Positions 2,247-37,340 of a DNA stretch of 64,000 nucleotides are shown here, piece after piece. The DNA comes from Streptomyces sp. MA5143a. Its GTDB lineage: Bacteria > Actinomycetota > Actinomycetes > Streptomycetales > Streptomycetaceae. Under the pieces are notes generated by a model that saw only the letters and a program-made list of their open reading frames with translations, had not been told where the DNA came from and did no database searches. Each line of letters starts with the position of its first letter. The first letter of the stretch is position 1. A program made the translations under genes and the position numbers. The stretch spans positions 124,001 to 188,000 of the forward strand of contig NZ_OLMK01000068.1 in the NCBI RefSeq assembly GCF_900290235.1. Direction: 5' to 3'.

Positions 2247-3125
2247 TCACCGGCCGCGCAGCGCCTCGATGACGCGGGCGAACGCCTCCATGTTCGGCTC
2301 CAGGACCGTGAGATACGTGAAGCCGTACCGCTTCCGCTGCGCCAGTACCTGTTCGACGATCTCGTCCAGCGTCCCCACGAGGACCAGCGGCAGCCGCAGG
2401 ACCTGCTCCTCGCGGAGATGCGGGATGTGCCCGAGCCACGGCCGCACGGCGGCGCCGCGGTCCTCGGCGAACTCCACGATCTGGATCAGCAGATTGAGCT
2501 CGGCCGGCTCCTCACGGCCGGACGCGAACTCGTGGTACCGGCCGACCCGTTCGTCCAGCTCCTCCGCCGTCAGCGCCTCCAGCGTGCCTCCCGCCCCCGG
2601 CCGGGCGCCCGTGAACGCCGCGATGTCCGCGTGTTCGGCGGTGATCCGCAGCATCCGGTCGCCGTTGGCGCCGACGAGCAGCGGTACGGTCCGCTGCGCG
2701 GGGCGCGGTTGGTGCTCCTCCGAGTCGAGGAGCCGCCGTAACTCCGCGATCGTCCGGGCGAGATGGTCGACGCGCTCGCGCGGCGACCTCCACGGCAGGC
2801 CCGCTCTCTCGTGCTCGGCCGGCACGTACCCGGTGCCCAGCCCCAGCTCCAGGCGTCCGCCGGTCAGCGCGTCCGTGGTGGCCACCTCGCGCGCGAGGAG
2901 CGCCGGGTTCCAGAAGCCCGCGTTGAGCACGAACGTGCCGACCCGGGGCCGTTCGGTCGCCTCGGCCGCGGCGACCAGCGCCGGGAACGGGGCGGGCATG
3001 CCCAGATGGTCGGGGACCAGGATCACGTCGTAGCCGAGCCGCTCGGCCCTGCGGCACTTCGCGCGCCACTCCTCGGCCGAGGTCGGATTGAGCAGGTTGA
3101 CTCCGAAACGGAACGGGCGCGGCAT
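2247..3125 (-). CDS. LLM class F420-dependent oxidoreductase
   Basis: A 292-residue luciferase-like TIM-barrel protein of the F420-binding subgroup (TIGR03621-like). The N-terminus reads FRFGVNLLNP, then DVILVPDHLGMPAPFPAL (residues 33-50), and LTGGRLELGLGTGY (88-100) is the usual cofactor-phosphate segment. Such enzymes use F420 or FMN for hydride transfer; the substrate is unknown. It is transcribed alone. Codon 129 (bases 2739-2741) is TTA, the rare leucine codon read by the bldA tRNA in Streptomyces, so translation may be limited to late growth. It sits next to a pseudogene, so it may belong to a plastic part of the chromosome. Confidence 0.88.
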   Translation of the reverse strand: MPRPFRFGVNLLNPTSAEEWRAKCRRAERLGYDVILVPDHLGMPAPFPALVAAAEATERPRVGTFVLNAGFWNPALLAREVATTDALTGGRLELGLGTGYVPAEHERAGLPWRSPRERVDHLARTIAELRRLLDSEEHQPRPAQRTVPLLVGANGDRMLRITAEHADIAAFTGARPGAGGTLEALTAEELDERVGRYHEFASGREEPAELNLLIQIVEFAEDRGAAVRPWLGHIPHLREEQVLRLPLVLVGTLDEIVEQVLAQRKRYGFTYLTVLEPNMEAFARVIEALRGR

Positions 3126-12328: not shown

Positions 12329-13618
12329 TCATCCCTCCCGCGCCGCCGCGCACACCGCGCGCGCGATCCGTGCCACGTCCTCGTCACCGGTGACGTACGG
12401 CGGCATCGTGTAGACGAGGTCGCGGAACGGCCGCAGCCACACGCCCTCGCGCACCGCGGCCTCCGTCGCCGCCCTCATGTCCACCTCGTGGTCGAGCTGG
12501 ACGACACCGATGGCGCCGAGGACCCGGACGTCCTTCACCCCCGGCACGTCGAGCGCCGGGGCCAGCCCTTCCCGCAGTCCCGCCTCGATCCGCCGGACCT
12601 CCGTGAGCCAGTCCTGCCCCAGCAGCAGCTCGATGGAGGCGAGCGCCACGGACGCGGCCAGCGGATTGCCCATGAACGTCGGCCCGTGGGCGAGCACGGG
12701 CACCTCGCCCCGAGAGATCCCGTCGGCCACCCGTGCCGTGCACAACGTCGCGGCCATCGTCAGATAACCGCCGGTCAGCGCCTTGCCCACGCACATCACA
12801 TCCGGCGTCACCGCCGCGTGCTCCGCCGCGAACAGCGCGCCCGTCCGGCCGAACCCGGTCGCGATCTCGTCGAACACCAACAGCACGTCGCGCGCGTCGC
12901 ACACCTCGCGCAGCACCCGCAGATACGCGGGGGAGTGGAACCGCATCCCGCCCGCGCCCTGCACCACCGGCTCCACGATCACGGCGGCCAGTTCGTCGGC
13001 GTGCCGCTCGACCGCCGAGCGCAACCGCTCCGCGTACGCCTCGTCGTACTCCGCCGGCGGCGCCTCGACGAACACCTGCCGCGGCAGCACGCCCTGCCAC
13101 AGCTCATGCATGCCGCCGTCCGGGTCGCACACCGACATGGGCTGCCAGGTGTCGCCGTGGTAGCCGCCGCGCCAGGTGAGCAGGCGCTGCTTGCCGGGAC
13201 GGCCGAGCGAACGCCAGTACTGCAGGCACATCTTGACGGCGACCTCGACCGAGACCGACCCCGAGTCGGCGAGGAACACATGCTCCAGACCGTCGGGCGA
13301 CATGTCGACAAGACGCTTCGCCAGTCGTACGGCGGGCTCATGGGTGAGCCCGCCGAACATCACATGGCTCATCCGGCCGAGCTGCTCGCGCGCGGCCTCG
13401 TTGAGCACCGGGTGGTTGTAGCCGTGGATGGCCGACCACCAGGACGACATGCCGTCGACGAGTTCGCCCGAGCCGTCGGCGAGCCGCAGCCGGACCCCGC
13501 TCGCCGACTCCACGACGAGCGGGTCCACCCGGCCCGGCATCGGACCGTACGGATGCCACACATGCCGCCGGTCGAGGTCCAGCAGCTCGGCCACGCTCGG
13601 GTCGGGCCCCTCAGGCAT
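12329..13618 (-). CDS. bioA: Adenosylmethionine-8-amino-7-oxononanoate aminotransferase BioA
   Basis: A 429-residue class III PLP aminotransferase converting KAPA to DAPA with SAM as amino donor. The N-terminal block [13 protein letters not shown] (14-26) and the SSWW motif (58-61) are diagnostic of BioA. PLP contacts are Asp250 ([14 protein letters not shown]) and the Schiff-base Lys279 (VGKALTGG). The ATG at 13618 overlaps the last codons of bioB, showing translational coupling; a longer open frame reaching 13801 lies inside bioB and is not used. Middle gene of the bioB-A-D operon. Confidence 0.96.
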
Positions 13619-14846
13619 TGGGCGCGAGATCCGTGCCGGCACCCCGACGCCGCACGGCGACCAGATCCGTCCGGGCCTCGCCCGCTTGCGAGGCCGCCGT
13701 GGAGGAGGTGGTGGCCGCGGAACCGCAGACGCCGCCCCCCTCATGCGACCCGCACCCGCCACCGCTGTCGTGGGACCCGCAGCCGCCACCCTCGTGGGCA
13801 CCGCACCCGGCGCTCTCGTGGGACCCGCAGCCGCCCCCGGCCGCCCGGTGCTCCGGCAGCGTGATCTGGTCGGCGCCCTCCACCTCGAACCCGGCGTCCG
13901 CGATCATCTCCAGGTCGGCCTTGCCGGCCTGGCCCTCGCTGGTGAGGTAGTCGCCGAGGAAGATCGAGTTGGCCAGGTGCAGCGCGAGCGGCTGCATCGT
14001 CCGCAGATGCACCTCGCGGCCACCGGCGATGCGCACCTCGACGTCCGGGCAGACGAACCGCACCATGGCGAGGATCCGCAGGCACCGCTGGGGCGTGAGG
14101 TTCCACTCCTTGGCCAGCGGGGTGCCCTCGAACGGGATCAGGAAGTTGACCGGCACCGAGTCCGGGTCCAGTTCACGCAGCGAGAAGACGACGTCGACGA
14201 GGTCCTCGTCGGTCTCGCCCATGCCCGCGATCAGACCGGAGCACGCCGACAGACCCGCCGCGTGCGCCTTCTGCACCGTGTCCACCCGGTCGGCGTACGT
14301 GTGGGTGGTCGTGATCTCCCCGTACGTCGACTCCGACGTGTTGAGGTTGTGGTTGTAGGCGTCCGCGCCCGCCTCGCGCAGCCGTTCGGCCTGACCGTCG
14401 GAGAGCAGACCCAGACAGGCGCACACCTCGACGCCCTCGTTCTCCTCCTTGATGGCCTTGATGGTGCCCGCGACGCGGTCCACGTCACGGTCCGTCGGGC
14501 CGCGCCCGGACGCCACCAGGCACACCCGCTTGGCACCGCCGGCGAGACCGGCCGCGGCGGCCTTCGACGCCTCGTCGGGCTTCAGCCAGGTGTACTTGAG
14601 GATCCCGGCCGTCGAGCCGAGCCGCTGGGAGCAGTACGAGCAGTCCTCGGGACACAGCCCGGACTTCAGGTTGACGAGATAGTTCAGTTTCACCCGTCGC
14701 CCGAACCAGTGCCTGCGCACCTTTCCGGCCGCGGCCACCACGTCGAGCAGGTCGTCGTCGGAGGTGCCGAGGACGGCGAGCGCCTCGGCACGGCTCAGCG
14801 GCTCGCGCCGGAGCCCCTTGTCCACCAGCGTGTTCAGCAGGTCCAT
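13611..14846 (-). CDS. bioB: Biotin synthase BioB with Cys/His-rich repeat tail
   Basis: A 411-residue radical-SAM enzyme inserting sulfur into dethiobiotin. The radical-SAM cluster ligands are Cys65, Cys69 and Cys72 ([12 protein letters not shown]); further family blocks include YNHNLNTS and LIPFEGTPL. Normal BioB ends near residue 335. This one continues for about 75 residues and begins with four CGSH/CGAH units (Cys340, 348, 356, 365, each followed by His three residues on) plus Cys374, spaced 8-9 residues apart in Gly, then an Ala/Thr-rich end. The tail looks like a metal or Fe-S handling segment. First gene of bioB-A-D, divergent from bioF. Confidence 0.96.
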
Positions 14847-15046
14847 GAGAGCCGATCCTGTCCTACCGGACCGCTCCCGGCCAAGGAGACTTCGGACAAC
14901 AGAGTCGGTTCGACGTGTGGGTATCGCCACATCGTGGGCGACGGGCCGTCCCGTTAGTGTCTGTGCACTGCCTACAAAAGCCCCTGCCGCGCTGCCCGAT
15001 GACAGCACCGGCACCGAGGGCTGCCCACGCGACCCCCGGAGGACTC
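14847..15046. promoter_or_regulatory. Divergent bioB/bioF promoter region
   Basis: A 200-base region driving both halves of the biotin locus. It must hold two back-to-back promoters. I searched it by eye for a BirA-like or BioQ-like palindrome and found only a weak 4-base-arm symmetry around 14955-14968 (AGTG...CACT). No operator can be assigned. Confidence 0.6.
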
Positions 15047-16174
15047 ATGGCGTTCGGCTGGATCGACGAGCAGGCGTCGGCACGCCGCCGCGCCGGGCTC
15101 GTACGGACCCTGCGCCCCCGCCCCGCCGACTCGCCCCTGCTCGACCTCGCGAGCAACGACTACCTGGGGCTGGCCCACCACCCCGAGATCATCGAGGGCG
15201 CGGCCGAGGCGGCACGCATCTGGGGCGGCGGGGCGACCGGCTCCCGGCTCGTCACCGGCACCACCGAGCTCCACGGCGAACTGGAGCGCGAACTGGCCGC
15301 CTTCTGCGGCTTCGAGGCCGCCCTCGTCTTCTCCTCCGGCTACGCCGCCAACCTCGCCGCCGTCACCGCGCTCGCCCCGCACGGCTCGCTGATCGTGTCC
15401 GACGCGGGCAACCACGCCTCCCTGATCGACGGCTGCCGGCTGGCCCGCGGGACCACGCAGGTCGTCGAGCACGCCGACCCCGACGCGGTCCGCAAGGCGC
15501 TCGGCACGGCCAAGGGACCCGCGATCGCGGTCTCCGACACGGTGTTCTCGGTGGACGGCGACGCCGCCCCGCTGGCCGGACTGGCCGCCGCGTGCCGCGC
15601 GTACGGCGCCGGGCTCGTCGTGGACGACGCCCACGGGCTCGGCGTCCTCGGCGACGGCGGCCGGGGCGCGCCGTACGCGGCGGGGCTGGCGGGCGCCCCC
15701 GATGTCGTCGTGACGGTCACTCTGTCGAAGTCGCTGGGCAGTCAGGGCGGTGCCGTCCTCGGACCGGCGAAGGTGATCGACCACCTGGTCAACGCGGCCC
15801 GGACGTTCATCTTCGACACGGGGCTCGCCCCGGCGGCGACGGGCGCCGCACTCGCCGCGCTCAGACTGCTGCGCCGTGAGCCGGAGCGGGCCGCCCGGGC
15901 CCGTGAGGTGGCGCGGGCGCTGCACACACGGCTGACGGCGTCGGGCCATGAAGCGGTGCGGCCCGACGCCGCCGTGGTGTCCGTACGGGCGCCGTCTCCG
16001 GATCAGGCGGTGCGGTGGGCGGCGGACTGCCGGGCGGCGGGTCTCGCCGTCGGCTGTTTCCGCCCACCGTCCGTGCCCGACGGCATCTCGAGGCTGCGGT
16101 TGACCGCCCGGGCGGATCTCACCGAGGGACAGATCGACCGAGCCGTGGGAATCATCGGCGATACGCGACCGTGA
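15047..16174 (+). CDS. bioF: 8-amino-7-oxononanoate synthase BioF
   Basis: A 375-residue alpha-oxoamine synthase condensing pimeloyl-thioester with alanine to KAPA, the first step of the ring pathway. PLP residues are visible: His123 (GNHAS) for stacking, Asp194 (DDAHG) at the pyridine nitrogen, and Lys228 (TLSKSLGSQGG) for the Schiff base; the block LDLASNDYLGL near 32-42 is typical. The ATG at 15047 has GGAGG 4 bases upstream. It is divergent from bioB with a 200-base shared promoter region, so the four genes bioF and bioB-A-D give a full late biotin pathway. No bioH or bioC is in the window. Confidence 0.96.
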   Translation: MAFGWIDEQASARRRAGLVRTLRPRPADSPLLDLASNDYLGLAHHPEIIEGAAEAARIWGGGATGSRLVTGTTELHGELERELAAFCGFEAALVFSSGYAANLAAVTALAPHGSLIVSDAGNHASLIDGCRLARGTTQVVEHADPDAVRKALGTAKGPAIAVSDTVFSVDGDAAPLAGLAAACRAYGAGLVVDDAHGLGVLGDGGRGAPYAAGLAGAPDVVVTVTLSKSLGSQGGAVLGPAKVIDHLVNAARTFIFDTGLAPAATGAALAALRLLRREPERAARAREVARALHTRLTASGHEAVRPDAAVVSVRAPSPDQAVRWAADCRAAGLAVGCFRPPSVPDGISRLRLTARADLTEGQIDRAVGIIGDTRP

Positions 16175-16231: not shown

Positions 16232-16456
16232 TCACCGAAGCGTGGTGACGAATCCCTCCCATGCCTCGGGGGTGAACAGCAGGGCGGGCCCCGCCGTGTT
16301 CTTCGAGTCGCGCACGGCCACCAGTCCGGCCAGTCGGCCGGACCCGGGACGGGCCGTTTCCACACAGTTGTTCATCCCCGTGCTGCGGCTGCTGCGCAGC
16401 CACCGCACACCGCGTAGCGCGGTACTGGTGGGTACGTTCCGAGGCAGAGCTGACAT
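16232..16456 (-). CDS. DUF397 family small protein
   Basis: A 74-residue protein with the DUF397 pattern: a W-R-S-S-R-S-like block (RWLRSSRS), NNCVETA, VAVRDSKNTAGPALLFTPEAWEGF. In Streptomyces such proteins are the small partners of DUF5753/XRE regulators, as in the WhiJ group. It lies 23 bases downstream of the XRE gene in the same direction, so the two form an operon. It probably modulates the regulator or an associated sigma/anti-sigma pathway; this is inferred from the family. Confidence 0.88.
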   Translation of the reverse strand: MSALPRNVPTSTALRGVRWLRSSRSTGMNNCVETARPGSGRLAGLVAVRDSKNTAGPALLFTPEAWEGFVTTLR

Positions 16457-16479: not shown

Positions 16480-17337
16480 CTAGCCCTGAGCCAGACCGGC
16501 GATGTAATCCAACGAGTCCTCGGGCGAAAGGGCGTGGATCTGAAGGGTGTTGAAGGCCTCGACATAAGCCCTGAGGTCTTCTTTCCGTTCGAGGTAGAGG
16601 CTACTCGTCAAGTGGTCGAGAACAACCACGTCCAGATCGGAAGTGTTCCGAAATGAGAAGATTACGAAAGGACCGGTGATGCCGATGTGCGCCCCGGCAG
16701 TGAACGGCAGCACCTGCAACCTCACTTGCGGCAGACGCGCCGCCTCGACCAACCGCTCCAGCTGACGGGCCATGACCTCGGGTCCGCCGACCTCACGCCG
16801 CAGAACGCCCTCGTCGAGCACGGCGCTCAGCTCCATCGGGGGGTGTCCGCGCAGAACGTCCTGCCGTGCGAGCCGCACTTCCACGAGCGCGTCGATCTTG
16901 TCGTCCTCCAGTCCCTCCACCGCGGCCCGCGTCACCGCCCGGGCGTACTCGGGGATCTGCAGCAGGCCCGGCACGACCGAGGTCTCCAGGGTGCGCATCC
17001 CGCTCGCCTGCGACTCCAGGCTGATGAAGTCCCGGTACGTCGGCGGCAGCACCCCTCGGTACGCGTGCCACCAGTTGTGCCGTCCGCCCCCGTCCTCGGA
17101 GCCCGCCAGCGCCATCAGCAGTTCCCGTAACTCGCCGTCGTCGACCGCGTAGGCGTCCAGCAGTCGGTGGACGTCCGCGGGTTTCACTCCGCTGGCGCCC
17201 GTCTCGATGCGGCTCACCTTCGACTGGTGCCAGCCCACGAGACGGGCGGCCTCGACGCTGGTGATGCCGACGCGGGTGCGCAGGAGGCGCAACTCGGCGC
17301 CGAGCTTGCGGCGGCGCACCGCCGGACCGTACTGCAT
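16480..17337 (-). CDS. XRE-family regulator with DUF5753 domain (WhiJ-like), TTA codon
   Basis: A 285-residue regulator. An N-terminal helix-turn-helix (~12-66: LRLLRTRVGITSVEAARLVG, QSKVSRIETG) is followed by a DUF5753 ligand/partner domain (~100-280) containing FISLESQASGMRTLETSVVP and LLQIPEYARAVT. The ATG at 17337 is preceded by GGAAGGAGACACCC; longer frames upstream have no homology. Codon 70 (bases 17128-17130) is TTA, read by the bldA tRNA, tying this regulator to development or late growth. It is followed by DUF397 and faces an HATPase gene, the layout of the WhiJ/AbaA-type modules. Confidence 0.92.
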   Translation of the reverse strand: MQYGPAVRRRKLGAELRLLRTRVGITSVEAARLVGWHQSKVSRIETGASGVKPADVHRLLDAYAVDDGELRELLMALAGSEDGGGRHNWWHAYRGVLPPTYRDFISLESQASGMRTLETSVVPGLLQIPEYARAVTRAAVEGLEDDKIDALVEVRLARQDVLRGHPPMELSAVLDEGVLRREVGGPEVMARQLERLVEAARLPQVRLQVLPFTAGAHIGITGPFVIFSFRNTSDLDVVVLDHLTSSLYLERKEDLRAYVEAFNTLQIHALSPEDSLDYIAGLAQG

Positions 17338-17443
17338 GGGTGTCTCCTTCCGCCCGGCGCGCGAAGTCGGGTGACGGTAGAGGATGGCCCGAGAGGCCCC
17401 TCGAATACGGTCGGCCGTCGGAGAGTTCACCGCTTCGAGCGAC

Positions 17444-17459
17444 AGATATATGCATATCT
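17444..17459. promoter_or_regulatory. AT-rich palindrome in the XRE/ATPase intergenic region
   Basis: AGATAT and ATATCT (17444-17449 and 17454-17459) flank a 4-base centre in an otherwise GC-rich divergent promoter. It is the best candidate operator for the XRE regulator, or part of an extended -10 region. Inference only. Confidence 0.5.
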
Positions 17460-17583
17460 TGGTGGATCGCCACCCGTGACGGCCCAGGTAGTGGCACTCT
17501 GGCGCGAAGCACCAGTCCGGGACCGTACTCGAATCATCCGCTCCCAGTCGGACATCGGTCCCGTGGGAAAGGGACGCACCGCC

Positions 17584-18042
17584 ATGGCAGATCACCAGGA
17601 AGCATCCGTCACTCTGCCGAGCGATCCCGCCTCGGTGTCCGCGGCCCGGAGATACGTCGCCACCGTGCTGGCCGAATGGGGCCTGCCGAGCGACACGGAC
17701 ATCGCGGACACCGTGCGCCTGATCGTGTCCGAACTCGCCACCAACGCCGTTCAGCACACCTTCGGTCAGTCACCGACGTTCACCGTGGACCTCGTCCTCG
17801 ACCGTGACGAGCATCTGCACATCGGCGTCACCGACAGTCATCCGCGCTTCCCGAAACGCCTGCCCGCCGCCGTCCAGCAGGACAACGGGCGGGGCATGGT
17901 CATCATCCGCTGGCTGACCGCCGAGTGCGGCGGGCGGCTGAGTGTCAGACCCACGCGGGAGGGCGGCAAGACGGTGGCGATCGAGCTTCCGTGGGCCGTC
18001 CCCGTGCAGCCGGTCAGGGCAGGCGGTCCGCAGGAGCCCTGA
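17584..18042 (+). CDS. Anti-sigma-factor-like ATPase (HATPase_c, RsbW family)
   Basis: A 152-residue cytoplasmic GHKL ATPase of the streptomycete RsbW-like group. The N-box with the ATP-coordinating Glu/Asn is LIVSELATNAVQHT (46-59), the D-box reads IGVTDS (80-85) and the G-box NGRGMVII (101-108). Such proteins phosphorylate or bind anti-anti-sigma factors. It is divergent from the XRE/DUF397 pair, the usual genomic arrangement. The ATG at 17584 is chosen because it begins the conserved part. Its 3' end overlaps the tail of the convergent membrane protein gene by 29 bases. Confidence 0.88.
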   Translation: MADHQEASVTLPSDPASVSAARRYVATVLAEWGLPSDTDIADTVRLIVSELATNAVQHTFGQSPTFTVDLVLDRDEHLHIGVTDSHPRFPKRLPAAVQQDNGRGMVIIRWLTAECGGRLSVRPTREGGKTVAIELPWAVPVQPVRAGGPQEP

Positions 18043-36476: not shown

Positions 36477-36564
36477 GCGGGCACTGTATCCAGCGACCGG
36501 CACCCGCGGTACGCGCCCGGAAGGCCTCCGGCGCGCGGACATGTGCAGGCGTACGAATTACTCC

Positions 36565-36579
36565 TACACTCCGGGTTCA
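36565..36579 (+). promoter_or_regulatory. Probable leaderless promoter of the LytTR regulator
   Basis: A -10 element TACACT (36565-36570) ends 8 bases before the ATG at 36579, so transcription would begin at or near the start codon, and no Shine-Dalgarno sequence is needed. The -35 match is weak. Confidence 0.5.
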
Positions 36580-37340
36580 TGCTGCGCGCGCTCGCCGTCG
36601 ATGACGAGAAACCCTCCCTCGAGGAGCTGCTGTACCTGCTGAACGCGGATCCGCGGATCAGCAGCGCCGAGGGCGCCAGCGACGCCACCGAGGCCCTGCG
36701 CCGGATCAACCGCGCCCTGGAGTCCGGCCCCGCCGGACCCGAGGCGATCGACGTGGTCTTCCTCGACATCCACATGGCCGGACTCGACGGCCTCGACCTC
36801 GCCCGGCTCCTCACCGGCTTCGCCCGGCCCCCGCTCGTCGTCTTCGTCACCGCCCACGAGGGCTTCGCCGTGCAGGCCTTCGACCTCAAGGCCGTCGACT
36901 ACGTCCTCAAGCCGGTCCGCCGGGAACGGCTCGCCGAGGCGATACGCCGAGCCGCCCAACTGCGCGGCGCCGCCCCGCCGACGCCGATACCCGTCCACGA
37001 ACCCGACCCCGACCAGATACCCGTCGAGCTCGGCGGCGTGACCCGCTTCGTCGCCGTCGACGACATCACCCATGTCGAGGCCCAGGGCGACTACGCCCGA
37101 CTGCACACCTCGCAGGGCAGCCATCTCGTGCGCATCCCGCTCTCCACCCTCGAGGAACGCTGGCGCGCCCGCGGCTTCGTCCGCATCCACCGCCGCCACC
37201 TCGTCGCCCTGCGCCACATCGGCGAACTCCGCCTCGACGCGGGCACGGTCAGCGTCCTCGTCGGCTCCGTGGAACTCCAGGTCAGCCGCCGCCATGCCCG
37301 CGAACTGCGCGATCTGCTGATGCGCCGGACCACGAGCTGA
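36579..37340 (+). CDS. LytTR family response regulator
   Basis: A 253-residue response regulator. The receiver domain (1-120) has the acidic pocket Asp8/Asp9, phosphorylation site Asp63 (VVFLDIHMAGLDG) and Lys111 (VDYVLKPVRRERL). The LytTR DNA-binding domain (~150-250) reads FVAVDDITHVEAQGDYARLH, then RGFVRIHRRHLVAL. It heads a run of four same-strand genes ending with a LytS-type kinase, with a DUF485 protein and a symporter between them, so the pair probably controls carboxylate uptake. The ATG at 36579 follows a -10-like TACACT closely. Confidence 0.93.
   Translation: MLRALAVDDEKPSLEELLYLLNADPRISSAEGASDATEALRRINRALESGPAGPEAIDVVFLDIHMAGLDGLDLARLLTGFARPPLVVFVTAHEGFAVQAFDLKAVDYVLKPVRRERLAEAIRRAAQLRGAAPPTPIPVHEPDPDQIPVELGGVTRFVAVDDITHVEAQGDYARLHTSQGSHLVRIPLSTLEERWRARGFVRIHRRHLVALRHIGELRLDAGTVSVLVGSVELQVSRRHARELRDLLMRRTTS

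Follow-up and report, generated by a model that had tools for sequence, protein, structure and literature searches.

Does a single TTA codon put a WhiJ-like regulator of Streptomyces sp. MA5143a under the control of bldA, and if so, is it this particular codon or the gene as such that has been kept under such control during evolution? The question arises from a locus next to biotin genes in a stretch of 64,000 nucleotides, here called the window, to which all positions refer.

The codon and its locus

The preliminary description had placed a TTA at 17128-17130, as codon 70 of the regulator. Reading of the minus strand and counting from the ATG at 17337 bear this out. The codon stands in frame in the context ...GAC GGC GAG TTA CGG GAA CTG..., is followed by a C, and is the sole TTA among the 38 leucine codons of the regulator. 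The features of the locus are:

13611-14846, minus strand: bioB, neighbour (PF06968 and PF04055)
15047-16174, plus strand: bioF, the conserved neighbour used for establishing orthology (neighbour comparison)
16232-16456, minus strand: DUF397 (BldB-like) partner, 74 aa, TTA-free (PF04149)
16480-17337, minus strand: WhiJ-like regulator, HTH_31 and DUF5753, 285 aa, SCO1242 orthologue (orthologue set and synteny)
17130-17128, minus strand: TTA, codon 70 of the regulator (read directly and counted from the start; TAA on the plus strand)
17164-17166, minus strand: codon 58 of the regulator, CGG (Arg) here, TTA in 118 of 205 orthologues
17344-17349, minus strand: ribosome-binding site AAGGAG, 7 nt upstream of the ATG at 17337 (sequence; conserved in the alignment)
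17420-17471, no strand: conserved 52-bp block, candidate operator/promoter (alignment of 203 loci)
17584-18042, plus strand: divergent AbaA-like HATPase (anti-sigma-like), 152 aa, TTA-free here (PF13581)

The start of the regulator at 17337 is backed by orthologues which align from residue 1 and by the conserved ribosome-binding site. The Pfam domains HTH_31 (PF13560, residues 12-73) and DUF5753 (PF19054, residues 101-280) are both matched above the cut-offs, which puts codon 70 at the end of the DNA-binding domain. The gene has what marks bldA-dependent genes of Streptomyces, an in-frame TTA within a real coding sequence, and the cognate tRNA-Leu(UAA) gene, bldA, is present in the same genome on another contig (G000:C145).

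The DUF397 gene starts 23 nt downstream of the regulator stop codon; bioF, bioB and bioA follow further along the locus. An XRE and DUF5753 regulator with adjoining DUF397 and AbaA-like HATPase genes, both kept in orthologous loci, is the composition by which a WhiJ cluster is recognized, and the designation as WhiJ-like XRE regulator given in the preliminary description is well founded. The same gene arrangement, including bioF, is found in 203 of the 205 distinct Streptomyces loci which constitute our orthologue set, and in other genera of the family. Beyond the ATPase gene, a match to the c-di-AMP riboswitch RF00379 (19217-19350, minus strand; 39.3 bits, barely over the cut-off of 38) is seen at the 5' end of an NlpC/P60 gene (18740-19297, minus strand).

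In S. coelicolor BioB is SCO1244 and BioD is SCO1246 (PMC2000904). The WhiJ-like SCO1242 is two gene numbers away from bioB; hence, as judged by gene numbers and by the position beside bioF and bioB, the regulator is the orthologue of SCO1242. The arrangement is identical in S. violaceoruber NRRL S-981, with TTA at codons 58, 73 and 207. The NCBIfam model for the paralogue SCO1979 matches the regulator below cut-off only (256 vs 350 bits). SCO1242 has been listed as a 'DNA-binding regulatory protein (WhiJ-like)' with a TTA in 9 of 11 Streptomyces and without one in the K. setae orthologue; it is among the WhiJ paralogues present in nearly all Streptomycineae and absent from other groups (PMC4255298). 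Because of this listing the TTA of the regulator is a known case: its presence in SCO1242 of most streptomycetes was published in 2013. On the codon context or the position of the TTA nothing was found in the open literature. A survey of 213 genomes counted 18 orthogroups in which half of the species or more have a TTA, wherever it is placed, and only 11 with a conserved TTA codon (PMC10327506).

Going by gene numbers, the DUF397 gene of the locus seems to have no SCO number, only SCO1243 fitting between SCO1242 and BioB; this may explain why SCO1242 is absent from a study of XRE-DUF397 pairs (PMC10364602).

How unusual is one TTA? The mean for Streptomyces genomes is 177 ORFs with a TTA (PMC10327506), which amounts to a few per cent of their genes. 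According to a rough gene call the window contains 4 TTA among 1540 leucine codons, one of which (codon 14 of the ORF 14915-16174) is upstream of the likely bioF start. In-frame TTAs are also located at codon 129 of the called ORF of a luciferase-like monooxygenase gene (2247-3125, minus strand) and at codon 6 of the longest ORF of a LytTR response regulator (36543-37340, plus strand), where it may precede the true start. A TTA is not a trait of the entire DUF5753 family, as only 4 of 25 DUF5753 genes in the source genome have one; the three further regulators are L006, L014 and L017. A single TTA in one gene is not improbable by itself; it is the comparison across orthologues which lifts the regulator above chance.

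TTA codons across the genus

A TTA at any position is present in the regulator of most orthologues (158 of 205, 77%). Of the 205, 118 have it at codon 58 and 19 at codon 70, none at both; the remaining positions are 16, 19, 21, 59, 73, 96, 126, 143, 162, 179, 196, 202, 207, 209, 255 and 282. TTA70 is also present in the nearest relatives, S. ossamyceticus and S. torulosus (98%); at 93%, S. tailanensis carries CTA instead. Outside Streptomyces, twelve more distant orthologues of the family were compared, the majority belonging to one genus, probably Kitasatospora; a single one carries TTA, at codons 70 and 193.

Retention of the very same codon, as known from adpA, supports a bldA target and does not define it. 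Here it is not observed, and plain vertical conservation of TTA70 is rejected (19/205). The preliminary description had made conservation of the TTA among orthologues its check; CTG, CTC, TTG, CTT or CTA occupy codon 70 in the majority, the very outcome it had named as speaking against this codon. The idea of bldA control at the level of the gene is not refuted, because most orthologues lacking TTA70 have a TTA elsewhere, chiefly at codon 58. By parsimony, the clade of the window (15 leaves) acquired TTA70 separately. A replacement of TTA58 by TTA70 in this lineage is unsupported, since the stem on which TTA58 arose is that of a different clade (141 leaves).

No TTA was found in DUF397, bioF or bioB of the 205 loci, and the ATPase gene has one in 6. 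A compensating TTA in partner genes where the regulator has none was not seen in DUF397 or bioF; four of the six TTA-bearing ATPases (L049, L050, L052, L087) are from species whose regulator already has TTA16. The GC3 of the regulator (0.849) is the same as that of the DUF397 gene (0.844), so regional AT drift is not the explanation for the TTA. A regional low GC or a recent horizontal origin is rejected likewise, the locus being syntenic through the genus.

Selection or drift

A tree was built from bioF, ATPase and DUF397 of 203 species and changes were counted by parsimony. The tree calls for about 36 gains of TTA and 21 losses; 45 of the 203 members have TTA-free regulators. TTA arose many times independently at different codons of the regulator, preferentially in lineages without one. 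On branches with a TTA-free ancestor the gain rate was 2.2-2.9-fold (Fisher P 0.0015-0.01), that of other synonymous changes 0.7-0.8-fold. In a null simulation with independent sites, in which the history of TTA58 was held fixed, the observed gain ratio was matched in 0-0.3% of the runs (P 0-0.003). Genes with at least two TTAs are fewer than expected, 20 observed vs a mean of 65-80 simulated (P 0.013-0.043). These data fit, at less than even odds, a reading in which the regulator is under selection for roughly one bldA checkpoint with no fixed codon, which is re-gained at new positions and seldom doubled. Since the tests were devised after the data had been seen and are based on parsimony, such selection is called plausible here and nothing stronger.

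Neutral tolerance is a serious, though also less than even, possibility. The regulator might be weakly expressed with relaxed codon usage, and TTA would drift in and out, be decoded by BldA tRNA as any codon is by its own tRNA, and have no regulatory effect visible to selection. TTG accounts for 10% of its leucine codons vs 1-3% in the neighbours. For other third-position changes from G to A the rates span 0.085-0.89, and TTG-to-TTA in the regulator, at 0.20, falls among them; much of the TTA supply can therefore be put down to relaxed codon usage. TTA is not retained longer than other leucine codons (leaving rates of 1.74 for TTA, 1.24 for TTG and 1.49 for CTG). The losses of TTA58, about 20, went uncompensated save for a same-branch gain of another TTA in only two, and the count of TTA-free leaves agrees with the neutral prediction of the simulation. 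What drift does not readily accommodate is the excess of gains where a TTA is absent together with the scarcity of double TTAs. Further, TTA:TTG is 0.21 vs 0.018 for CTA:CTG, a difference in which the TTA58 clade weighs heavily. Gains also lean towards the 5' end, 17 of 33 falling into the first third of the gene (P 0.013 vs leucine exposure), but the bias is not significant when compared with TTG gains (P 0.26). A 5' lean is reported for streptomycete TTA genes.

A probable bldA-gated regulator

As a whole, we read the locus as containing a WhiJ paralogue, orthologous to SCO1242, whose TTA is a true codon of the bldA type and whose product is gated and controls its own intergenic region, the position of the TTA being free; we give this reading a probability of about 0.6. 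On sequence grounds the regulator is a credible bldA target, and TTA70 itself is lineage-specific. In the absence of BldA tRNA ribosomes would stall or fail at codon 70 and yield little full-length regulator. Translation past this point would need charged tRNA-Leu(UAA), and the full-length protein would be formed mainly when BldA tRNA is plentiful, i.e., in late growth and development. The DUF397 product could drop by polarity, an effect suggested earlier for other operons with a TTA (PMC2000904). Throughout the genus, a bldA checkpoint at no set position would often be imposed on the gene.

The regulator would then act on the conserved intergenic region of 246 bp which it shares with the ATPase gene, controlling itself and its divergent neighbour. 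The 52-bp block in this region contains the palindrome ATATGCATAT at 17448-17457; with three mismatches allowed, the 20-bp stretch around it has one site in the genome. In S. venezuelae, WhiJ9 attaches to direct repeats within the intergenic region of its own locus; it appears self-repressing, and the divergent gene is activated through it (PMC10294661). By analogy, the regulator's own intergenic region is its probable site of action. What we infer is the bldA dependence of the regulator, its action on the intergenic region and its physiological output; codon, frame, tRNA gene, neighbourhood, the frequent TTAs at varying positions in orthologues and the excess of gains in TTA-free lineages are observations.

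The preliminary description had gone further and suggested that without active bldA the module may stay off. For the regulator itself bldA dependence is consistent with the presence of the tRNA gene and with the 158 TTA-bearing orthologues out of 205. For the module the claim overreaches: the ATPase and DUF397 genes here are TTA-free, and the regulator alone would be directly gated. The ATPase would escape direct gating, and the output of the module could rise or fall with bldA; should the regulator be a repressor of the divergent ATPase gene, bldA would reduce the expression of that gene. Some TTA genes are reported to be expressed without bldA.

How does the locus compare with known systems? 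The SCO1242 orthologues are the same gene by synteny with bioF and bioB and have a TTA in most Streptomyces, yet mostly at codon 58, in some at 16, 19, 73, 179 or elsewhere, and at codon 70 in the window. The established bldA target adpA (bldH) likewise codes for a regulator and has one UUA for the BldA tRNA to read. Its TTA has been tested by mutagenesis. The adpA TTA is present in all 14 genomes analysed (PMC4255298), compared with 77% in the regulator's group, and is positionally conserved (PMC10327506), whereas the position varies among orthologues of the regulator. The locus whiJ9-bldB9-iosA of S. venezuelae likewise combines a WhiJ-type regulator, a BldB paralogue and a divergent target with an intergenic control region; there the divergent gene is iosA, here an AbaA-like ATPase, and the report discusses no TTA codon (PMC10294661). 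In the XRE-DUF397 pairs Scr1/Scr2 a DUF397 gene follows the regulator as it does here; the S. coelicolor pairs in these studies exclude SCO1242, and the locus in the window has in addition the divergent ATPase and the TTA (PMC6262351, PMC10364602).

It is improbable that the bldA-gated regulator controls the adjoining biotin genes and so couples biotin synthesis to development. Synteny with bioF is kept in 203 of 205 loci and in a sister genus, but conserved synteny by itself is no proof of control. In a bldA mutant of S. coelicolor only a few proteins of primary metabolism are altered, and BioB (SCO1244) and BioD (SCO1246) belong to them; however, the change in BioD is a shift between two spots, i.e., post-translational (PMC2000904). 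Moreover, the conserved element between regulator and ATPase is single in the genome and absent from the bioB-bioF gap, where neither an intergenic alignment nor the genome search with this element revealed a shared operator. With no copy of the element near the bio genes, the biotin link is a lead only. The gap itself (14847-15046) has conserved blocks, e.g., GTGTGGGTATCGCCACA and TTAGTGTCTGTGCACTGCCTACAAAA (as in L057), which are possible sites of biotin regulation. An error in start codon, reading frame or base calling as the source of the TTA can be dismissed, as TTA70 is also present in independent genomes of close relatives (S. ossamyceticus, S. torulosus, S. scabiei and others), and frame and start of the regulator are conserved among orthologues.

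What is added to the known case is that the TTA position is not fixed across lineages. The module, otherwise mostly TTA-free, is a clean place for testing the checkpoint idea. If it is the checkpoint and not the site which is selected, searches for bldA targets requiring a conserved codon miss real ones, and position-wise conservation underestimates the bldA regulon.
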